A stretch of 64,000 nt of DNA from Prosthecobacter dejongeii (lineage in GTDB: Bacteria > Verrucomicrobiota > Verrucomicrobiia > Verrucomicrobiales > Verrucomicrobiaceae), in the NCBI RefSeq assembly GCF_014203045.1, contig NZ_JACHIF010000001.1, positions 186,001-250,000 on the forward strand, given 5' to 3'. Within the stretch, counting starts at the first letter, position 1, and the number at the start of each line of letters is the position of its first letter. Positions 448 through 9,393 of this stretch are shown here, piece by piece. The position numbers and the translations under genes were made by a program. Under the pieces are notes generated by a model, which did not search any database, had not been told where the DNA came from, and worked only from the letters and a program-made list of their open reading frames with translations.

Positions 448-3218
<2,771 letters not shown>

Positions 3219-3222
<4 letters not shown>

Positions 3223-4685
3223 CTCCCCCACTCTCCACCAACGGTTTGGGCCTGCTGAATCGTCGCAACTTTCTCTCCAGCGCAGCCGGCCTAGGCCTAG
3301 CCACCCTGCTAGGCGAAAATAACTCCTTGGCCAGCACGAGGCCCATCCATCCGGCCATTGATCCCTCCAATCCACTTGGCGCACGCAGCACTCACTTTGC
3401 GCCCAAGGCAAAGCGCGTGCTCATCCTCTTCTGTTCAGGCGCCGTCAGCCACCTGGATTCATGGGATTGGAAACCGGAACTGCTGCGCATGGACGGCAAG
3501 CCCATGCCGGGTGCTAAAGAAAACTTCCTCACCTTCCAGGGCGAGAACGGAAACCTGGTTAGGCCTCTCTATGACTTCAAACCCCGTGGCCAGACTGGAA
3601 AAATGGTGTCTGACCTCTTCCCCCATCTCGCCTCAATGACGGATGACCTCACCTTCATCCACTCCATGACGGCCAAGTCCAACACCCATGGTCCAGCGGA
3701 AAACCAGATGAGCACGGGCTTCATCTTCGATGGTTTTCCCAGCCTCGGCTCATGGGTCAGCTACGCCCTCGGATCTGAGGCAGAAAACCTGCCCGCCTAC
3801 GTCGCCATTCCCGATCCACGCGGTGTCCCCCAGGCAGGCGTGAACAACTGGGGCAACGGCTTTCTTCCTGCCCTTTTCCAGGGCACTGCCTTCAATTCCA
3901 GCCGCCCCATCTATAACCTCGCCCGGCCCGAGAAAGTCTCCGCCGCCAGCGACCTCGCCGCCCGCGATGTTCTAAAATTCCTCAATGAAAAGCACCTGGA
4001 AAAATTCCCTGGTGATACAGAACTCGCCGCCCGCATCGCCAGTTACGAACTCGCCGCCAAGATGCAACTCTCTGTACCTGAAGTGAGTGATCTTTCCAAA
4101 GAACCCACCAGCACTTTAAAAGCTTATGGCGTGGACGATCCCAATCCCGTCAAAAGTGGCTTTGCCAAAAACTGCCTCCTCGCACGCCGCCTGCTCGAGC
4201 GCGGAGTTCGCTGTGTGAAACTTTACAATGGTGCCTATGCCATGGGCGAAGGCATCGGCAACTGGGACGGTCACCGAAAGCTGAAGGAGCAGTATGACAA
4301 ACACGCGCCCATCTTTGACCAGCCTGCTGCCGCCCTGATCCGCGACCTCCGCCAACGCGGCCTATTAGAGGACACCCTCGTCGTCTGGTGCACCGAATTT
4401 GGCCGCATGCCAACCTTTCAAAAAGGCGCAAGTGGCCGCGACCACAATCCACAGGGCTTCACCGTCTGGATGACAGGCGCGGGGGTAAAACCCGGCGTCA
4501 GCTATGGAGCCACAGACGAACTTGGCCACAAAGCCGTTGATAAAATCACCACCATTTACGATTTTCACGCCACCATCCTGCACCTCCTCGGTCTAGATCA
4601 CGAACGCCTCAGCTACTACCACAACGGCATTGACCGCCGCCTCACCGACGTCCACGGCCATGTGATCAAAGCCGTGCTCACCTAA
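3219..4685 (+). CDS. DUF1501 family protein, Tat-exported
   Basis: A 488-residue protein with a twin-arginine signal ([19 protein letters not shown] near residues 8-26), so it is probably exported folded. The body shows the alkaline-phosphatase/sulfatase-like fold features of DUF1501: an early [13 protein letters not shown] strand (usually metal-ligand type), the [13 protein letters not shown] region, WCTEFGRMP and [21 protein letters not shown], and a C-terminal [14 protein letters not shown]. The start codon lies within the last codons of the upstream gene (ATGA overlap). This DUF1553-DUF1501 pairing is the standard arrangement in the phylum. The substrate is unknown; hydrolysis of a sulfate or phosphate ester is only suggested by the fold. 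Confidence 0.93.
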
Positions 4686-4716: not shown

Positions 4717-4935
4717 CTAGTTACAGCCACATCCGCCCCCGCCGATTCCCCCGCCGCCAAAACTTCCTTCACGAGAAAAATAAGCGTGCTGTGTCATCGT
4801 CAGCAGCAGCGGATCCAATCCTGGATCCATGAGTGGATCTGCAAAATGTTTCCGTTCATACGGCAACACCCGGACAAAGTGCTGACTGCAACTGCAAAGA
4901 GTGGAACCAACGAGAACTAAGAGGAGCATTTTCAT
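4717..4935 (-). CDS. DUF4266-like small lipoprotein with Gly-rich GCGCN tail
   Basis: A 72-residue protein. The N-terminal hydrophobic stretch ends in a lipobox-like LCSC, with Cys16 as the likely lipidated residue. The mature part is short: YERKHFADPLMDPGLDPL, then HAYFSREGSFGGGG and a final GGGGCGCN carrying Cys69 and Cys71. This matches the pattern I recall for DUF4266, where a charged/proline segment and an aromatic-S-(K/R)-E motif precede a Gly-rich CGC tail. It is last in the operon, 17 bp after the ApbE-like gene. The family is known to co-occur with DUF3570 and ApbE genes, but its function is unknown. The CGC tail could bind a metal or be modified. No canonical ApbE flavinylation motif (Dxx[S/T]GA[S/T]) is visible. 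Confidence 0.8.
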   Translation of the reverse strand: MKMLLLVLVGSTLCSCSQHFVRVLPYERKHFADPLMDPGLDPLLLTMTQHAYFSREGSFGGGGIGGGGCGCN

Positions 4936-4952
4936 GACAGGTGGATAGGTAT

Positions 4953-5927
4953 TCAGGGGGTGCCGCGGACCTGATGCTGGATAAAATTGGAGGTAGCTAT
5001 TTGGCCTTGCTCATTCTGCAGGCAGGCTTCCACGCCTGGGGCTGACTCGGCAAAGACCATGCCCTCACGCCAACCCAGAACGAAGATGGAGGTGGCATAG
5101 ATTCCTGCCACGACGCAACTGGATGCAAGCACGGTCACCGCCCTTAACCCGTGCCTCACGGGCCATCCCGTACGAGGATCTAAGATGTGGCCATAGCGCT
5201 CCCCCTCGTGCTCAAATCTTCGGGCATAGTCACCGCTCGCACACACCGCATACCCAGAGACAGCTAGCCCGCCGAGGCAATTCTCCGGGCGCACACCATC
5301 TTGGATACCGACATGCCAGAAAGGATGCTGACCATTACCTCCTAGAGCGAAGATGTCACGACCAAGGTCCACCAGAATATCGAGAATGCCATGCCTCTTC
5401 GCGATAGCGATGACCTGATCCACCGCATGTTCTTTCCCAAATCCCCCAAAGTCTAGGCCCATACCTTCACGCGGAAGAAAGATTCCTCCTGGGCGACGCT
5501 GAACATCCTGCCAGCGAGATAAGTCTCGTGCTTTTTCAACATCCGTTTTTGCAGGCATACTCTCACGGGCTTTTTTCCAATCCCACACCCGCAGCAGAGG
5601 CAGCATCGCAGGATCAAGGATACCATTCGTGAGGCGATACATCGCCTCTGCCAAGTCGAGGATTTGATCCATTTCCGCATCCGTCTCGACCCAAGATTTA
5701 CCAGCAGCAGCATTGATCCGGGAGACTAGTGAATCTGGCCTAAAGTGGGAAAACTTAGCTTCGAAGGCTTGGATCCAGCCGAGCGCTTCCGCAACGAATT
5801 GCAGAGCTATTTGATCCGACGACTGCCGAAACAGTAAGGCGCAGTTTGTCCCTAGGGCTTTGAATTCCACACGCCGCACTCCATGGGCATCAGGCGGTAA
5901 CGGGGGACTGGGTAAAAACGTGCGCAT
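4953..5927 (-). CDS. ApbE-like FAD:protein FMN transferase (atypical)
   Basis: A 324-residue ApbE-family protein. Family features visible are ALGTNCALLF near the N-terminus, FSHFRPDSLVSRINAAAG, the GLDFGGFGKEHAVD segment (around residues 175-188), SGDYARRF and YGHILDPRTGWPV. ApbE enzymes transfer FMN from FAD to Ser/Thr of exported redox proteins. Two departures stand out. There is no signal peptide or lipobox at the N-terminus, although most ApbE proteins act outside the cytoplasm. The conserved Asp of the C-terminal ADA(L/W)xT metal site is replaced (VVAGIYAT). It lies 10 bp after the DUF3570 gene and before the DUF4266 gene. A diverged enzyme acting on the linked small lipoprotein is possible but unproven. 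Confidence 0.88.
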   Translation of the reverse strand: MRTFLPSPPLPPDAHGVRRVEFKALGTNCALLFRQSSDQIALQFVAEALGWIQAFEAKFSHFRPDSLVSRINAAAGKSWVETDAEMDQILDLAEAMYRLTNGILDPAMLPLLRVWDWKKARESMPAKTDVEKARDLSRWQDVQRRPGGIFLPREGMGLDFGGFGKEHAVDQVIAIAKRHGILDILVDLGRDIFALGGNGQHPFWHVGIQDGVRPENCLGGLAVSGYAVCASGDYARRFEHEGERYGHILDPRTGWPVRHGLRAVTVLASSCVVAGIYATSIFVLGWREGMVFAESAPGVEACLQNEQGQIATSNFIQHQVRGTP

Positions 5928-5937
5928 GGCCTAAAGT

Positions 5938-7122
5938 TCAAAACTGCACCGTCACCCCCAAGGTCCAGATGTTCGCCTTCGGGTAAGCAGCAGCAGGTGC
6001 GCGCTCACTCGCAGCTCCGGTTCCCCTCATTGCATAGTGCTCATAGGTCAGAGATAGGGCCACATTTTCACTCAGTTGGCAGCGCCCCTTCACGCCCAGA
6101 CTGAGACTGCTCAAGGATGAAAGCCGATAGTCAGCCGAGTAATGGGGACCACGCCCCATGGGATATTCCTGTGGTCTATTCACACCGCTCACCTCGTCCA
6201 GCGTGTTGTAAAAAAAATCCGCCGCCGTCTGCTGGTAATGGCGGAAGAATGGGGTGATCTGAAATTTGTTTCCCAACTTCTGCCGCCATTCGATCTGCAG
6301 GCTGTGCGAAAGGACGCCATAGTCGTCATAAGAGATCCGGCTCACGGCATCCAGGGACGCTTGAAAGCGTGTTAAATAGCGAGTGGCCTGCAGCTGGAAA
6401 ACACCGCGCAGACGACTGTCGGGTCGGTTTTCACGATACAGAATATCCACCGGAATGTCCGTGATGACACCACCCACCGGCAGCGTAAAGATGTCGGTTC
6501 GCTGGATGCTCTTATAGGAGTCGTTCAGATAACCTTCGGCATACCCCACCGTCATATTTGCCGTGAGAATGGTTTTTTTGTCCAGCAATTGGCTGAGACC
6601 GATGAAGGCATCATAGCTGGTTTTATCCTGTTCTTCGAGCCCCACCACACTCACAAGATCACTCACATAGTTGAGCCCTAAACTGAGCGTGGTATTCTTT
6701 TTATTGAACTCCCACTTGTCGCTCAAGGCGATGCCCCGAGACAGATAGTCAGACTCGTCACTTTGCGAGATTTCTAACTCGATCCTGTGATCGCCGACCT
6801 GCTGAGAAAGCGCCACCAGCACACCATTTCGCACATCCTCCAAATCCGCCAAAAACGGCTGGAGACTCCCCGGTTGCGCCCCTGTTGGGGAGGCCCCTGA
6901 AATGGCATCGCGCAGCAATTGAAAACGCAAGCTCGTGTCCGGAGTGAATTCTACCTCTCCTCGGAAATACCACGACTCCACCTGAATGCGTCCGTCGGAT
7001 TCATCATACAACTGATAGCTCGTGTCTGAGCGAAACCCCTCCGCAGCGGACAGCGATAAAGTCGGCAGCAGGAGCGGCAGAGCCGACACTGAAGCTAAAG
7101 GGGGCGGCAAAAAACGCGACAT
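5938..7122 (-). CDS. DUF3570 outer-membrane beta-barrel protein
   Basis: A 394-residue protein with a signal peptide (LPPPLASVSALPLLLPTLSLSAAEG). Many alternating amphipathic strands follow, and it ends in an aromatic residue (TLGVTVQF), the usual signature of an outer-membrane barrel recognised by the BAM machinery. The early motif DGRIQVESWYFRGEVEFTPDTSL, the DAISGASP stretch and SDYLSRGIALS match what I know of DUF3570, a family found beside ApbE and DUF4266 genes. Its role is unknown; a pore or surface display function for the small lipoprotein would fit the operon. The gene is 21 bp downstream of the Ig-domain gene and 10 bp upstream of the ApbE-like gene. Confidence 0.85.
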   Translation of the reverse strand: MSRFLPPPLASVSALPLLLPTLSLSAAEGFRSDTSYQLYDESDGRIQVESWYFRGEVEFTPDTSLRFQLLRDAISGASPTGAQPGSLQPFLADLEDVRNGVLVALSQQVGDHRIELEISQSDESDYLSRGIALSDKWEFNKKNTTLSLGLNYVSDLVSVVGLEEQDKTSYDAFIGLSQLLDKKTILTANMTVGYAEGYLNDSYKSIQRTDIFTLPVGGVITDIPVDILYRENRPDSRLRGVFQLQATRYLTRFQASLDAVSRISYDDYGVLSHSLQIEWRQKLGNKFQITPFFRHYQQTAADFFYNTLDEVSGVNRPQEYPMGRGPHYSADYRLSSLSSLSLGVKGRCQLSENVALSLTYEHYAMRGTGAASERAPAAAYPKANIWTLGVTVQF

Positions 7123-7143: not shown

Positions 7144-9393
7144 TCAGCGGGCTGGCTCACCACGAACCTGAATCAGTTCCACCCGACCCGAGAGAATGGC
7201 GGTGCGATTGGCCGCTTGTCCGGCAGTCGGCAACTGCGGTAACAAGAAGCTTCCCTCAGCCCTGAGGTCTCCATCGGAACCGCGAATCACTTGCCCCTTA
7301 AAAGCCACTTTATTGCGGGTAAACGTCCCATCGACCAAGCTAAATTGACCGCTCAGCGCCCCTGTAGCCGGATTCAAATTCAGTGAGACCCGACCCGCAT
7401 TCTCCAATGCAGGAGGCAGCAAGAATTTCCGCGTTTCCGCCCAGACCACATCCAGGTCTGGATTGGTCAAAGACGTGTGGATTTCCCCTTCAGAAAAATG
7501 CAGACTTACCACACCCGTTTCGGGCAGTCCCAGCACCACATGTCCACGGCTTGCAGGGGCTAAGTAGGCCCCTTCGACCTCCACATTCACAGGTCCGAAC
7601 CCTCCCGGATAAGCCAGCTCATTCACCGCAGGTTTCCGCCAAGTCAGATCGCCACGAATGACATTGCCAAAAAAAGGCACCTGCGGCTCTTCGGTAAGAT
7701 TCATCTCCCCCTGAAGAGAACCGCCGCCACGGTAAAGTCCCGTGTATAACCAGAACTGGCCCTGCGAACCAAGAAAAGCAGCCGAGGAAAAAGCCTGCCC
7801 ATCAGCCGTCCGGCCCAAGACAGTCAAGCCACCATTCGATCCCACGATCATGGTCAAAAATCCTGTCCCTTGGGGCAGCGTGACCACTCCATGATCGCCG
7901 ACATCAGCCAGTCGGAGAGCTGCCGAATAATAACCTGCCAGTGACTCCGCAGGCCGGAAAGTGGCGTGGTACCTTGCCCTCCAGCCATTCACCCCCGCTG
8001 TGCCTAGCACACCCGTCATCTCACCGGTCTCGGCATTCAGAGAAAGCTGCAAGTCTAGGCCCCCAACCTTAGCCGAGATCTGAGGTGCGGCAGCTTCCAG
8101 CCGACCTTTGACTGAATACGCCACTGCCCCGGCACGAGCAGCCCCGCTTGAGGAGGTCGTAGAAGCCCTGAGCGTGTATGAGCCATTCGAAGTCGTCGTC
8201 AGAGAAACAAAACCACCGAGCCCTCGATTGCTAGCCGCATCCCGCTGGATCAATCCACCAAAAGTGCCCACCAATCCTTGGCTTAGAGCCTTTACCACCA
8301 AAGGAAAGCTGACAGGCGGGCTACTGCTACCACCACGAGCAGCCCGAACCTGCACCTGGAAGACGCCGGAAACCTCAGGCCGTCCTGAAATACGCCCCGT
8401 CACCGCATCTGCACGCAGACCTCTCGGCAGGCCCGTGAGGGTGAAGCGACTCGGCTCTCCGACAGCCGTCACCGTGTGAGAATAAGTGGCTCCCACAGTC
8501 GCGGCAGGGAAAACCGCATCCACAACCTCAGGCGGGGCTGGCTGCACGGTAATCTGGGCTGTCCGGGAATTCACCGTCGCCAAATCACTGCTTACCCTTA
8601 CCCAATAGTTCGTTGTCGTTTCTAGGGCTGGAGTCGTGAAGGTATTTTCATCCCCACCCACAGGCAGCGATTCATCCCCGCTCACCCCCTCATACCATTG
8701 GTAGCTCAAAGCCTCACTGCCACTGGCTTGGATTGCCAACGTCACTGACTGGCCAAACGCCACCGTTCGTGAAGTCGGCTGGACCGTGATGCTCACTCCA
8801 GCTTGGCCTGTGATGGAGACCGTAAAATTCCGGCCAAATCGGTCGGGGCCATGCGTCGCTACCAACCGGATCGGAAACGTTCCAGACTCCAAAGGTTTCC
8901 CTACCAACGCAGCGATACCTTCCCCGCTGTTGTAGGTGAGCTCCATGCCTGGCACCTCCCCACTTTCAAGCTCCCACCCGAGCGGTGGTGTCGGCGTGCC
9001 GGTGATCTGGAAAATGGCCGTTAGATCTCCCCCTACTCGCCCCGTAACGGTGGAGGCACCTCGGCTCGGTGCGAGTTGCACCAGAGTCGTCGCTCCAGCG
9101 ACTCGATCATAAGCTCCCAGCCCGGCCACCACCGTGATCGCGGTCCGGAGACTCCCAGATGAAGCCAGTGTGGAAATCAAATTCACCTCTGGCAGCAGCA
9201 CCTGCGCCGCAGGTGTCCGCTGAAACAGCAGCAAAAGAGAGCTAGCACGGTTTAAAAAAAGCCGGGATTTTTGGACAACCGAACTGCGAAATAGAATGCT
9301 GCAGACTCCGGCTTTTCCACGGTTAGAGCCATGCTTCAGACTGGGAGCAGCGAGACAGCGTAAAAAAAAATGTATGGCGCTCATATCCGCCAT
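7144..9393 (-). CDS. Secreted Ig-like/He_PIG repeat protein
   Basis: A large beta-rich extracellular protein. It contains an Ig-like domain (ITVQPTSRTVAFGQSVTL, then YQWYEGVSG and TNYWVRVSS), followed by a putative-Ig He_PIG domain (GATYSHTVTAVG, LPRGLRADAVTGRISGRP). After these comes a long series of verrucomicrobial beta repeats with G-x-F-x-G style strands. The start is uncertain. The frame is open up to 9540, but that would overlap the divergent gene at 9518. An ATG at 9393 is given here; a hydrophobic stretch LLLLFQRTPAAQ near 9240 looks like a signal peptide whose true start may be a TTG nearby. It lies just upstream of the DUF3570 gene and may be the first gene of that operon. The function is unknown; surface adhesion is possible. 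Confidence 0.7.
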   Translation of the reverse strand: MADMSAIHFFLRCLAAPSLKHGSNRGKAGVCSILFRSSVVQKSRLFLNRASSLLLLFQRTPAAQVLLPEVNLISTLASSGSLRTAITVVAGLGAYDRVAGATTLVQLAPSRGASTVTGRVGGDLTAIFQITGTPTPPLGWELESGEVPGMELTYNSGEGIAALVGKPLESGTFPIRLVATHGPDRFGRNFTVSITGQAGVSITVQPTSRTVAFGQSVTLAIQASGSEALSYQWYEGVSGDESLPVGGDENTFTTPALETTTNYWVRVSSDLATVNSRTAQITVQPAPPEVVDAVFPAATVGATYSHTVTAVGEPSRFTLTGLPRGLRADAVTGRISGRPEVSGVFQVQVRAARGGSSSPPVSFPLVVKALSQGLVGTFGGLIQRDAASNRGLGGFVSLTTTSNGSYTLRASTTSSSGAARAGAVAYSVKGRLEAAAPQISAKVGGLDLQLSLNAETGEMTGVLGTAGVNGWRARYHATFRPAESLAGYYSAALRLADVGDHGVVTLPQGTGFLTMIVGSNGGLTVLGRTADGQAFSSAAFLGSQGQFWLYTGLYRGGGSLQGEMNLTEEPQVPFFGNVIRGDLTWRKPAVNELAYPGGFGPVNVEVEGAYLAPASRGHVVLGLPETGVVSLHFSEGEIHTSLTNPDLDVVWAETRKFLLPPALENAGRVSLNLNPATGALSGQFSLVDGTFTRNKVAFKGQVIRGSDGDLRAEGSFLLPQLPTAGQAANRTAILSGRVELIQVRGEPAR

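Follow-up and report, generated by a model that had tools for sequence, protein, structure and literature searches.

A variant member of the DUF3570/ApbE/DUF4266 flavinylation systems in Prosthecobacter dejongeii

Described systems and the operon of P. dejongeii

Literature on both DUF3570 and DUF4266 was located in Méheust et al. 2021 (PMC8238504), which describes the systems closest to the one analysed here. In that study, the DUF3570 protein of Chlorobium luteolum was flavinylated by its cognate ApbE in E. coli; this protein contains two [S/T]GA[S/T] motifs, and flavinylation was lost only when both serines were replaced (PMC8238504). Among the DsbD-linked clusters reported, 227 contain DUF3570, and most of these also contain a thioredoxin-like protein and DUF4266, the CXC tail of which may cycle between redox states (PMC8238504). 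According to a review (PMC12052999), the flavinylation motif follows the rule D-x-x-[S/T]-G-A-[S/T], in which the last residue carries the FMN. The original prediction for the present locus stated that the co-occurrence of the three families was known but that their function was not; the former is correct, whereas the latter has been partly outdated since 2021 (PMC8238504).

In the window (the whole 64,000-nucleotide stretch that was analysed), three tightly spaced minus-strand genes encode DUF3570, ApbE and DUF4266 proteins (Table 1), with gaps of 10 bp between the first two and 17 bp between the last two. The gene identities, coordinates and gaps given in the original prediction were all reproduced, with Pfam matches far above cut-off (229.7 bits against 25.6 for PF02424), but a fourth gene on the same strand, encoding a large immunoglobulin-like (Ig-like) protein that forms part of the system, and a second copy of the cluster in the genome had been overlooked. 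The PF12094, PF02424 and PF14086 genes are adjacent, an [S/T]GA[S/T] acceptor motif is present in DUF3570, and the 72-residue DUF4266 protein ends in GGGGCGCN, which includes the CXC tail. Because these families, the substrate and the CXC tail were already described by Méheust et al. 2021, the operon belongs to the described group, as a variant form of a known system that is functionally unexplained. In the DUF3570 tree, the window copy groups with its own genus.

The window operon shares with the clusters of Méheust et al. the three Pfam families, the CXC tail and the ApbE motif in DUF3570, but it contains neither a DsbD gene nor a thioredoxin-like gene, the latter being usual, though not universal, in flavinylation clusters. 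It also differs in having one motif rather than two, in the additional Ig-like protein, and in an ApbE with neither a signal peptide nor the catalytic Asp. We did not find previous descriptions of an apparently cytosolic, Asp-less ApbE branch, of an obligate pairing of barrel and lipoprotein across phyla, or of an Ig-like partner; the main text of PMC8238504, as distinct from its supplements, mentions neither immunoglobulin-like proteins nor Verrucomicrobia. We infer, with a probability of roughly 55%, that the products of the operon form a thiol/flavin electron relay at the outer membrane. Downstream of the operon are two plus-strand genes (window 448-4685) that appear to resemble the pair of a planctomycete-type cytochrome (DUF1549/DUF1553) and DUF1501.

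Table 1. Features of the operon and its Ig-like neighbour in the window
Feature	Position	Strand	Basis and remarks
DUF3570 gene	5938..7122	minus	394 aa; PF12094, E 4.5e-69; predicted 18-strand outer-membrane barrel, probable ApbE substrate
ApbE-family gene	4953..5927	minus	324 aa; PF02424, E 6e-68; without export signal
DUF4266 lipoprotein gene	4717..4935	minus	72 aa; PF14086, E 6.5e-18
Ig-like (Ig_7 / He_PIG) surface protein gene	7144..9393	minus	Pfam; stop at 7144, 21 bp upstream of DUF3570
Conserved N-terminal signal of Ig protein	9088..9222	minus	QRTP (9211-9222) to D-R-V-A-G-A-T (9088-9108)
Flavinylation motif D72-A-I-S-G-A-S78 of DUF3570	6889..6909	minus	Alignment; end of strand 3, before loop 80-90
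Gly275 codon of ApbE	5103..5105	minus	Alignment; FmnB has catalytic-triad Asp D301 at this place
DUF4266 lipobox L13-C14-S15-C16	4888..4899	minus	Sequence; predicted lipidation
DUF4266 C-terminal tail Cys-Gly-Cys-Asn	4720..4731	minus	Sequence

Co-occurrence and composition of the clusters

In 289 evenly drawn Verrucomicrobiota genomes and 349 Pseudomonadota genomes, DUF3570 and DUF4266 are inseparable (29/30 and 26/26 positive genomes, respectively). DUF3570 was detected in 30 Verrucomicrobiota genomes and DUF4266 in 29, all of which are also DUF3570-positive, and the sole DUF3570-positive genome without DUF4266 contains a weak partial match. In Pseudomonadota, the two families were found in the same 26 genomes, with one further DUF4266 match below the family cut-off. 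The Fisher p values of this co-occurrence, in which shared ancestry is ignored, are 5e-39 and 8e-40, and the pattern suggests that the two proteins may be in contact with each other. The original prediction had named homologous barrels widespread without the other two genes as an argument against itself; such barrels were not found with respect to DUF4266, which is present in 55 of the 56 DUF3570-positive genomes of the two phyla. With respect to ApbE, the same can be said only loosely: some clusters contain no ApbE, and the link between DUF3570 and ApbE is therefore looser than that between DUF3570 and DUF4266.

All three genes are present together in 31 of the 32 clusters of the evenly drawn Verrucomicrobiota genomes, so that their association is not due to chance. 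In the sampled clusters of both phyla, DUF4266 is linked in 61/61, a thioredoxin-like gene in 55/61 and ApbE in 52/61. The thioredoxin-like protein, which has a WCAPCK active site and an export signal, is encoded in 28/32 Verrucomicrobiota and 27/29 Pseudomonadota clusters. The gene order is DUF3570-ApbE-thioredoxin-DUF4266 in nearly all Verrucomicrobiota clusters, and this holds on 80 loci as far as the contigs reach, whereas most Pseudomonadota clusters have the order thioredoxin-DUF4266-DUF3570-ApbE. DsbD is encoded elsewhere in the window's genome and also in 7/7 other genomes tested; it is not specific to the system, because the DUF3570-less genomes G115 and G248 contain it as well. No DUF4266 was found in viral contigs or plasmids.

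A second Pseudomonadota cluster type (thioredoxin-DUF4266-DUF3570 without a linked ApbE) was observed at L276, L277 and L282-L286, where the neighbours include SH3/outer-membrane barrel genes and a gene for a protein of approximately 900 aa with an HZS_alpha domain and PD40 repeats (Pfam assignment in L284 only). In four of these seven clusters, the Gly of the motif is relaxed, giving SSAS or SNAS.

The DUF4266 proteins are highly uniform at both ends. A lipobox, as defined by a simple pattern, is present in 147/152 DUF4266 ORFs, and the tail CGCN, which the original prediction had proposed to check for constancy, terminates 147 of the 151 genuine DUF4266 ORFs, the other four, from divergent clusters, ending in CGCY or CGCF. 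It had also been proposed that ApbE modifies this small Cys/Gly-tailed lipoprotein and that the barrel exports or displays it, a scheme that fits the tight gene linkage and the invariance of the tail. However, the published substrate is DUF3570 (PMC8238504), and the D-x-x-[ST]-G-A-[ST] motif, which is present in the window DUF3570, was not found in DUF4266. Furthermore, the conservation of CGCN is just as high in ApbE-less clusters, and the lipoprotein's own lipobox implies that it leaves the cytosol without the barrel. We thus regard modification of DUF4266 as very improbable. The accompanying suggestion that a redox system of the outer membrane receives a cofactor agrees with the thiol/flavin relay that we prefer.

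The second copy in the window's genome (G000:C1:1083318-1086179, locus L020) has the order DUF3570-ApbE-TlpA-like thioredoxin-DUF4266-Ig protein and, like the clusters of Méheust et al., includes a thioredoxin-like gene. Its DUF3570 gene shows a frame break at a run of G, with one base fewer than the L029 ortholog, owing to either a mutation or an assembly error. In the window's genus, the paralogous cluster has as neighbours genes for a YceI-like protein, a type III polyketide synthase and an FAD monooxygenase, at L020:48-3786, L021:817-4676, L022:3807-6798, L025, L026, L029 and L102 (Pfam assignments for L020 and partly for L022). This set recalls alkylquinone biosynthesis and could supply the flavin system with a diffusible quinone as its partner.

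A CusA/CzcA-type RND efflux pump gene and a TolC-like gene (L020:10314-15483) precede the second copy and the clusters of several genus relatives. This RND neighbour, together with the 25 DUF3570 clusters reported to contain the VIT1 iron transporter (PMC8238504), is in favour of a metal system in which the CGC tail would bind Cu, Fe or another metal, the barrel would pass the metal and the flavin would reduce or oxidize it. However, no metal gene is located directly beside the window copy, the RND neighbour is found only in part of one genus, and none of the metal genes recurs consistently in both phyla, which leaves this explanation doubtful compared with the electron relay.

The predicted barrel, its putative acceptor site and the linked ApbE subfamily

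The AlphaFold model of the window DUF3570 (mean pLDDT 92.1) is a closed antiparallel barrel of 18 strands with a C-terminal Phe394. Structure searches matched generic porin-like barrels among solved structures, and a sequence search of the PDB gave no match. In the model, odd strands are followed by loops of 2 to 38 residues and even strands by turns of 2 to 4. On the assumption of the usual barrel topology with periplasmic termini, the odd-strand loops are extracellular and the even-strand turns periplasmic. Since S78 is located at the end of strand 3, beside loop 80-90, the flavin would sit at the outer face, and its site is thus predicted at the probable extracellular end of the barrel. Strand alternation in the model further suggests that the even residues, including D72 and S78, point to the lumen.

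The window DUF3570 contains only one full motif; TGAQ (80) and TGAA (368) have no acceptor residue. As single-motif relatives are common, we interpret this as a variant rather than as grounds for exclusion. The fourth position and the Ala of the motif vary among relatives (ITGSS, IAGAT, ISGST), but the final Ser/Thr is kept in every intact, confidently aligned DUF3570, the alignment being less certain in divergent lineages. The window DUF3570 is a probable ApbE substrate, with Ser78 as the putative FMN acceptor, as judged from the motif. Long Ser/Pro/Asp-rich inserts were observed directly after the motif in the DUF3570 proteins of L090-L092, L103, L108-L110, L114, L115 and L122, which belong to another part of the phylum, and proteins with this insert frequently contain a second AGAT- or SGAT-like box. 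In addition, a 912-aa ORF at L268:8266-11004 contains DUF3570 and is approximately twice the usual length, possibly representing a fusion.

The window ApbE shares with the ApbE/FmnB FAD:protein FMN transferases (PDB 7esa, 4xdt and 3pnd) the family assignment, the triad Ser and His, and the DxGG (here DFGG) and HxxDPxTG boxes. However, S231, H247 and G275 align with the published triad Ser257, His273 and Asp301 of FmnB (PDB 7esa), so that the catalytic Asp is replaced by Gly. The enzyme also differs in having no export signal, which most but not all members possess; neither an upstream in-frame start nor a hydrophobic N-terminus was found. Because Gly275 replaces the catalytic Asp, activity cannot be assumed, and the protein is best described as a member of the sequence family with a putative FMN transferase role.

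Both peculiarities characterize the linked enzymes in general. According to a simple hydrophobicity rule (not SignalP), a hydrophobic N-terminal stretch is missing in 125/130 linked ApbEs but present in 133/147 linked thioredoxin-like proteins and 148/152 DUF4266 proteins; the flavin-attaching enzyme thus looks cytosolic. Gly replaces the triad Asp in 103 of the 109 cluster ApbEs, three others being of the Asp type and three unassignable. The three Asp-type enzymes are from the divergent clusters L116-L118, and two of them have a clear signal-like N-terminus. The GxD-box Asp was considered as a compensating acidic residue, but it is also present in Asp-type ApbEs, and no swap was seen.

Five ApbEs are encoded in the window's genome. 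The linked pair is unexported and of the Gly type; the remaining three are of the Asp type, and a signal-like N-terminus is present in two of these. Nine Verrucomicrobiota genomes with an ApbE-less cluster all contain an unlinked Gly-type ApbE (9/9). Such clusters were considered as a test for motif loss, but the motif stays and an unlinked ApbE of the subfamily is present. In contrast, four Pseudomonadota genomes whose clusters are exclusively of the ApbE-less type were checked, and no Gly-type ApbE was found in them; their ApbEs look exported and have the Asp in 6/8 cases, with two unassignable. The ApbE type changes approximately 2 times on the DUF3570 tree (row L274 being labelled by default despite having no linked ApbE), compared with 9.3 times expected for shuffled labels. 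These few changes and the genome distribution indicate that DUF3570 type and ApbE type go together.

The predominance of Gly among the cluster ApbEs and the presence of exported, Asp-bearing ApbEs in the same genome may alternatively mean that the linked ApbE has lost its FMN transferase activity and taken on another role, with flavin, if any, provided by the other ApbEs. We consider this quite unlikely, given that Ser231, His247 and the DFGG box are kept, that the Gly-type subfamily tracks DUF3570 in cis or in trans, and that the acceptor residue of DUF3570 is conserved.

Ig-like proteins and the proposed electron relay

The start of the Ig-like gene is uncertain (ATG at 9393 or 9384, in an ORF that extends to 9540). 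Near the N-terminus of this protein and its relatives, L-Q-R-[T/S]-P is followed by a hydrophobic stretch ending in G-A-T, with Q, P, A and T invariant and G nearly so, and the remainder varies (Ig domains, NHL repeats and others). This combination of a conserved N-terminal part and a variable remainder resembles a sorting signal on diverse cargo. The 289 Verrucomicrobiota genomes were searched with an N-terminal model 112 positions long, with the top candidates of each genome scored; it matched 15/30 DUF3570/DUF4266-positive and 0/259 negative genomes (Fisher p 3.6e-17, ancestry ignored). All 15 genomes come from either the window's order or a single family (f9) of its class, where 16 genomes in total are system-positive. 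Most matches adjoin the cluster, and at least four are located elsewhere in positive genomes.

This restriction to positive genomes, mostly beside the cluster, and the variability of the parts after the signal would suit a sorting or secretion device, in which DUF3570-DUF4266 handles the QRTP...GAT proteins, the thioredoxin-like protein aids folding and the flavin serves a step. However, no such Ig-like protein was found beside the cluster in Pseudomonadota, or anywhere in the other Verrucomicrobiota groups with the same core genes. Handling of Ig proteins thus cannot be the core function, and we consider the device unlikely. We regard the Ig-like protein as a probable partner or client of the barrel at the cell surface. 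Autotransporter extended signal peptides (ESPR) are likewise conserved N-terminal extensions ahead of a signal-peptide-like helix, but the Ig proteins have another sequence (QRTP, GAT) and are tied to the DUF3570 system.

The predicted structure of the Ig protein (mean pLDDT 75, with the helical part below 70 in places) contains helices at 27-56 and 77-97 and an Ig sandwich from residue 100. Because helix 77-97 ends at the GAT box and an Ig strand follows directly, signal-peptidase cleavage between A98 and T99 is favoured over a flavinylation site. As a second ApbE substrate, the Ig protein was not retained: D-R-V-A-G-A-T loosely resembles the motif and Gly-Ala-Ser/Thr hardly varies (the box count partly reflecting a search pattern that required the final T), but the Asp is not kept outside the window's relatives. 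It is therefore only a tentative idea that the DUF3570-linked ApbEs are cytosolic, Asp-less FMN transferases acting before export on outer-membrane and surface proteins, with the Verrucomicrobiota Ig proteins as second client, recognized by QRTP...[D/H/N]-x-x-[A/S]-G-A-T and possibly receiving FMN on the GAT threonine.

In the electron relay that we prefer, the ApbE homologue would use FAD to attach FMN to Ser78 of the DUF3570 precursor in the cytosol, presumably before export. After export, DUF3570 would insert as a barrel of 18 strands, its FMN lying at the extracellular end if the model and normal topology apply. DUF4266, its obligate partner, would be lipid-anchored at the outer membrane beside the barrel, and its Gly-rich arm ending in Cys-Gly-Cys may pass electrons between a periplasmic thioredoxin-like protein and the FMN. 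The chain would thus run through DsbD, which may re-reduce the thioredoxin-like protein, the thioredoxin-like protein itself, the CGC arm, the FMN on DUF3570 and an external acceptor or donor, in a direction that we put forward provisionally. For the window copy, the thioredoxin-like protein would come from elsewhere, for example from the second copy. This reading is favoured by the published flavinylation of DUF3570, the conserved acceptor, the pairing with DUF4266, the thioredoxin-like genes, DsbD, the unlinked ApbEs of the subfamily and the barrel model. It is weakened by the lack of a thioredoxin gene in the window, by Gly275, by the unspecific occurrence of DsbD and by the single motif, as opposed to the two of C. 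luteolum.

Porin-cytochrome conduits of the MtrCAB type contain a redox cofactor within an outer-membrane barrel assembly. The window system would likewise place a redox cofactor in such an assembly, but with flavin instead of haem, as a single covalent FMN and without a multihaem protein, and its role as a conduit is putative. The findings also raise the question of how an ApbE with neither an export signal nor the catalytic Asp serves an outer-membrane substrate, and provide the Ig-like protein as a testable partner for a flavinylation system. If a covalent flavin is indeed located at the outer face of the barrel and fed by thiols, the system would represent a haem-free electron route across the outer membrane.
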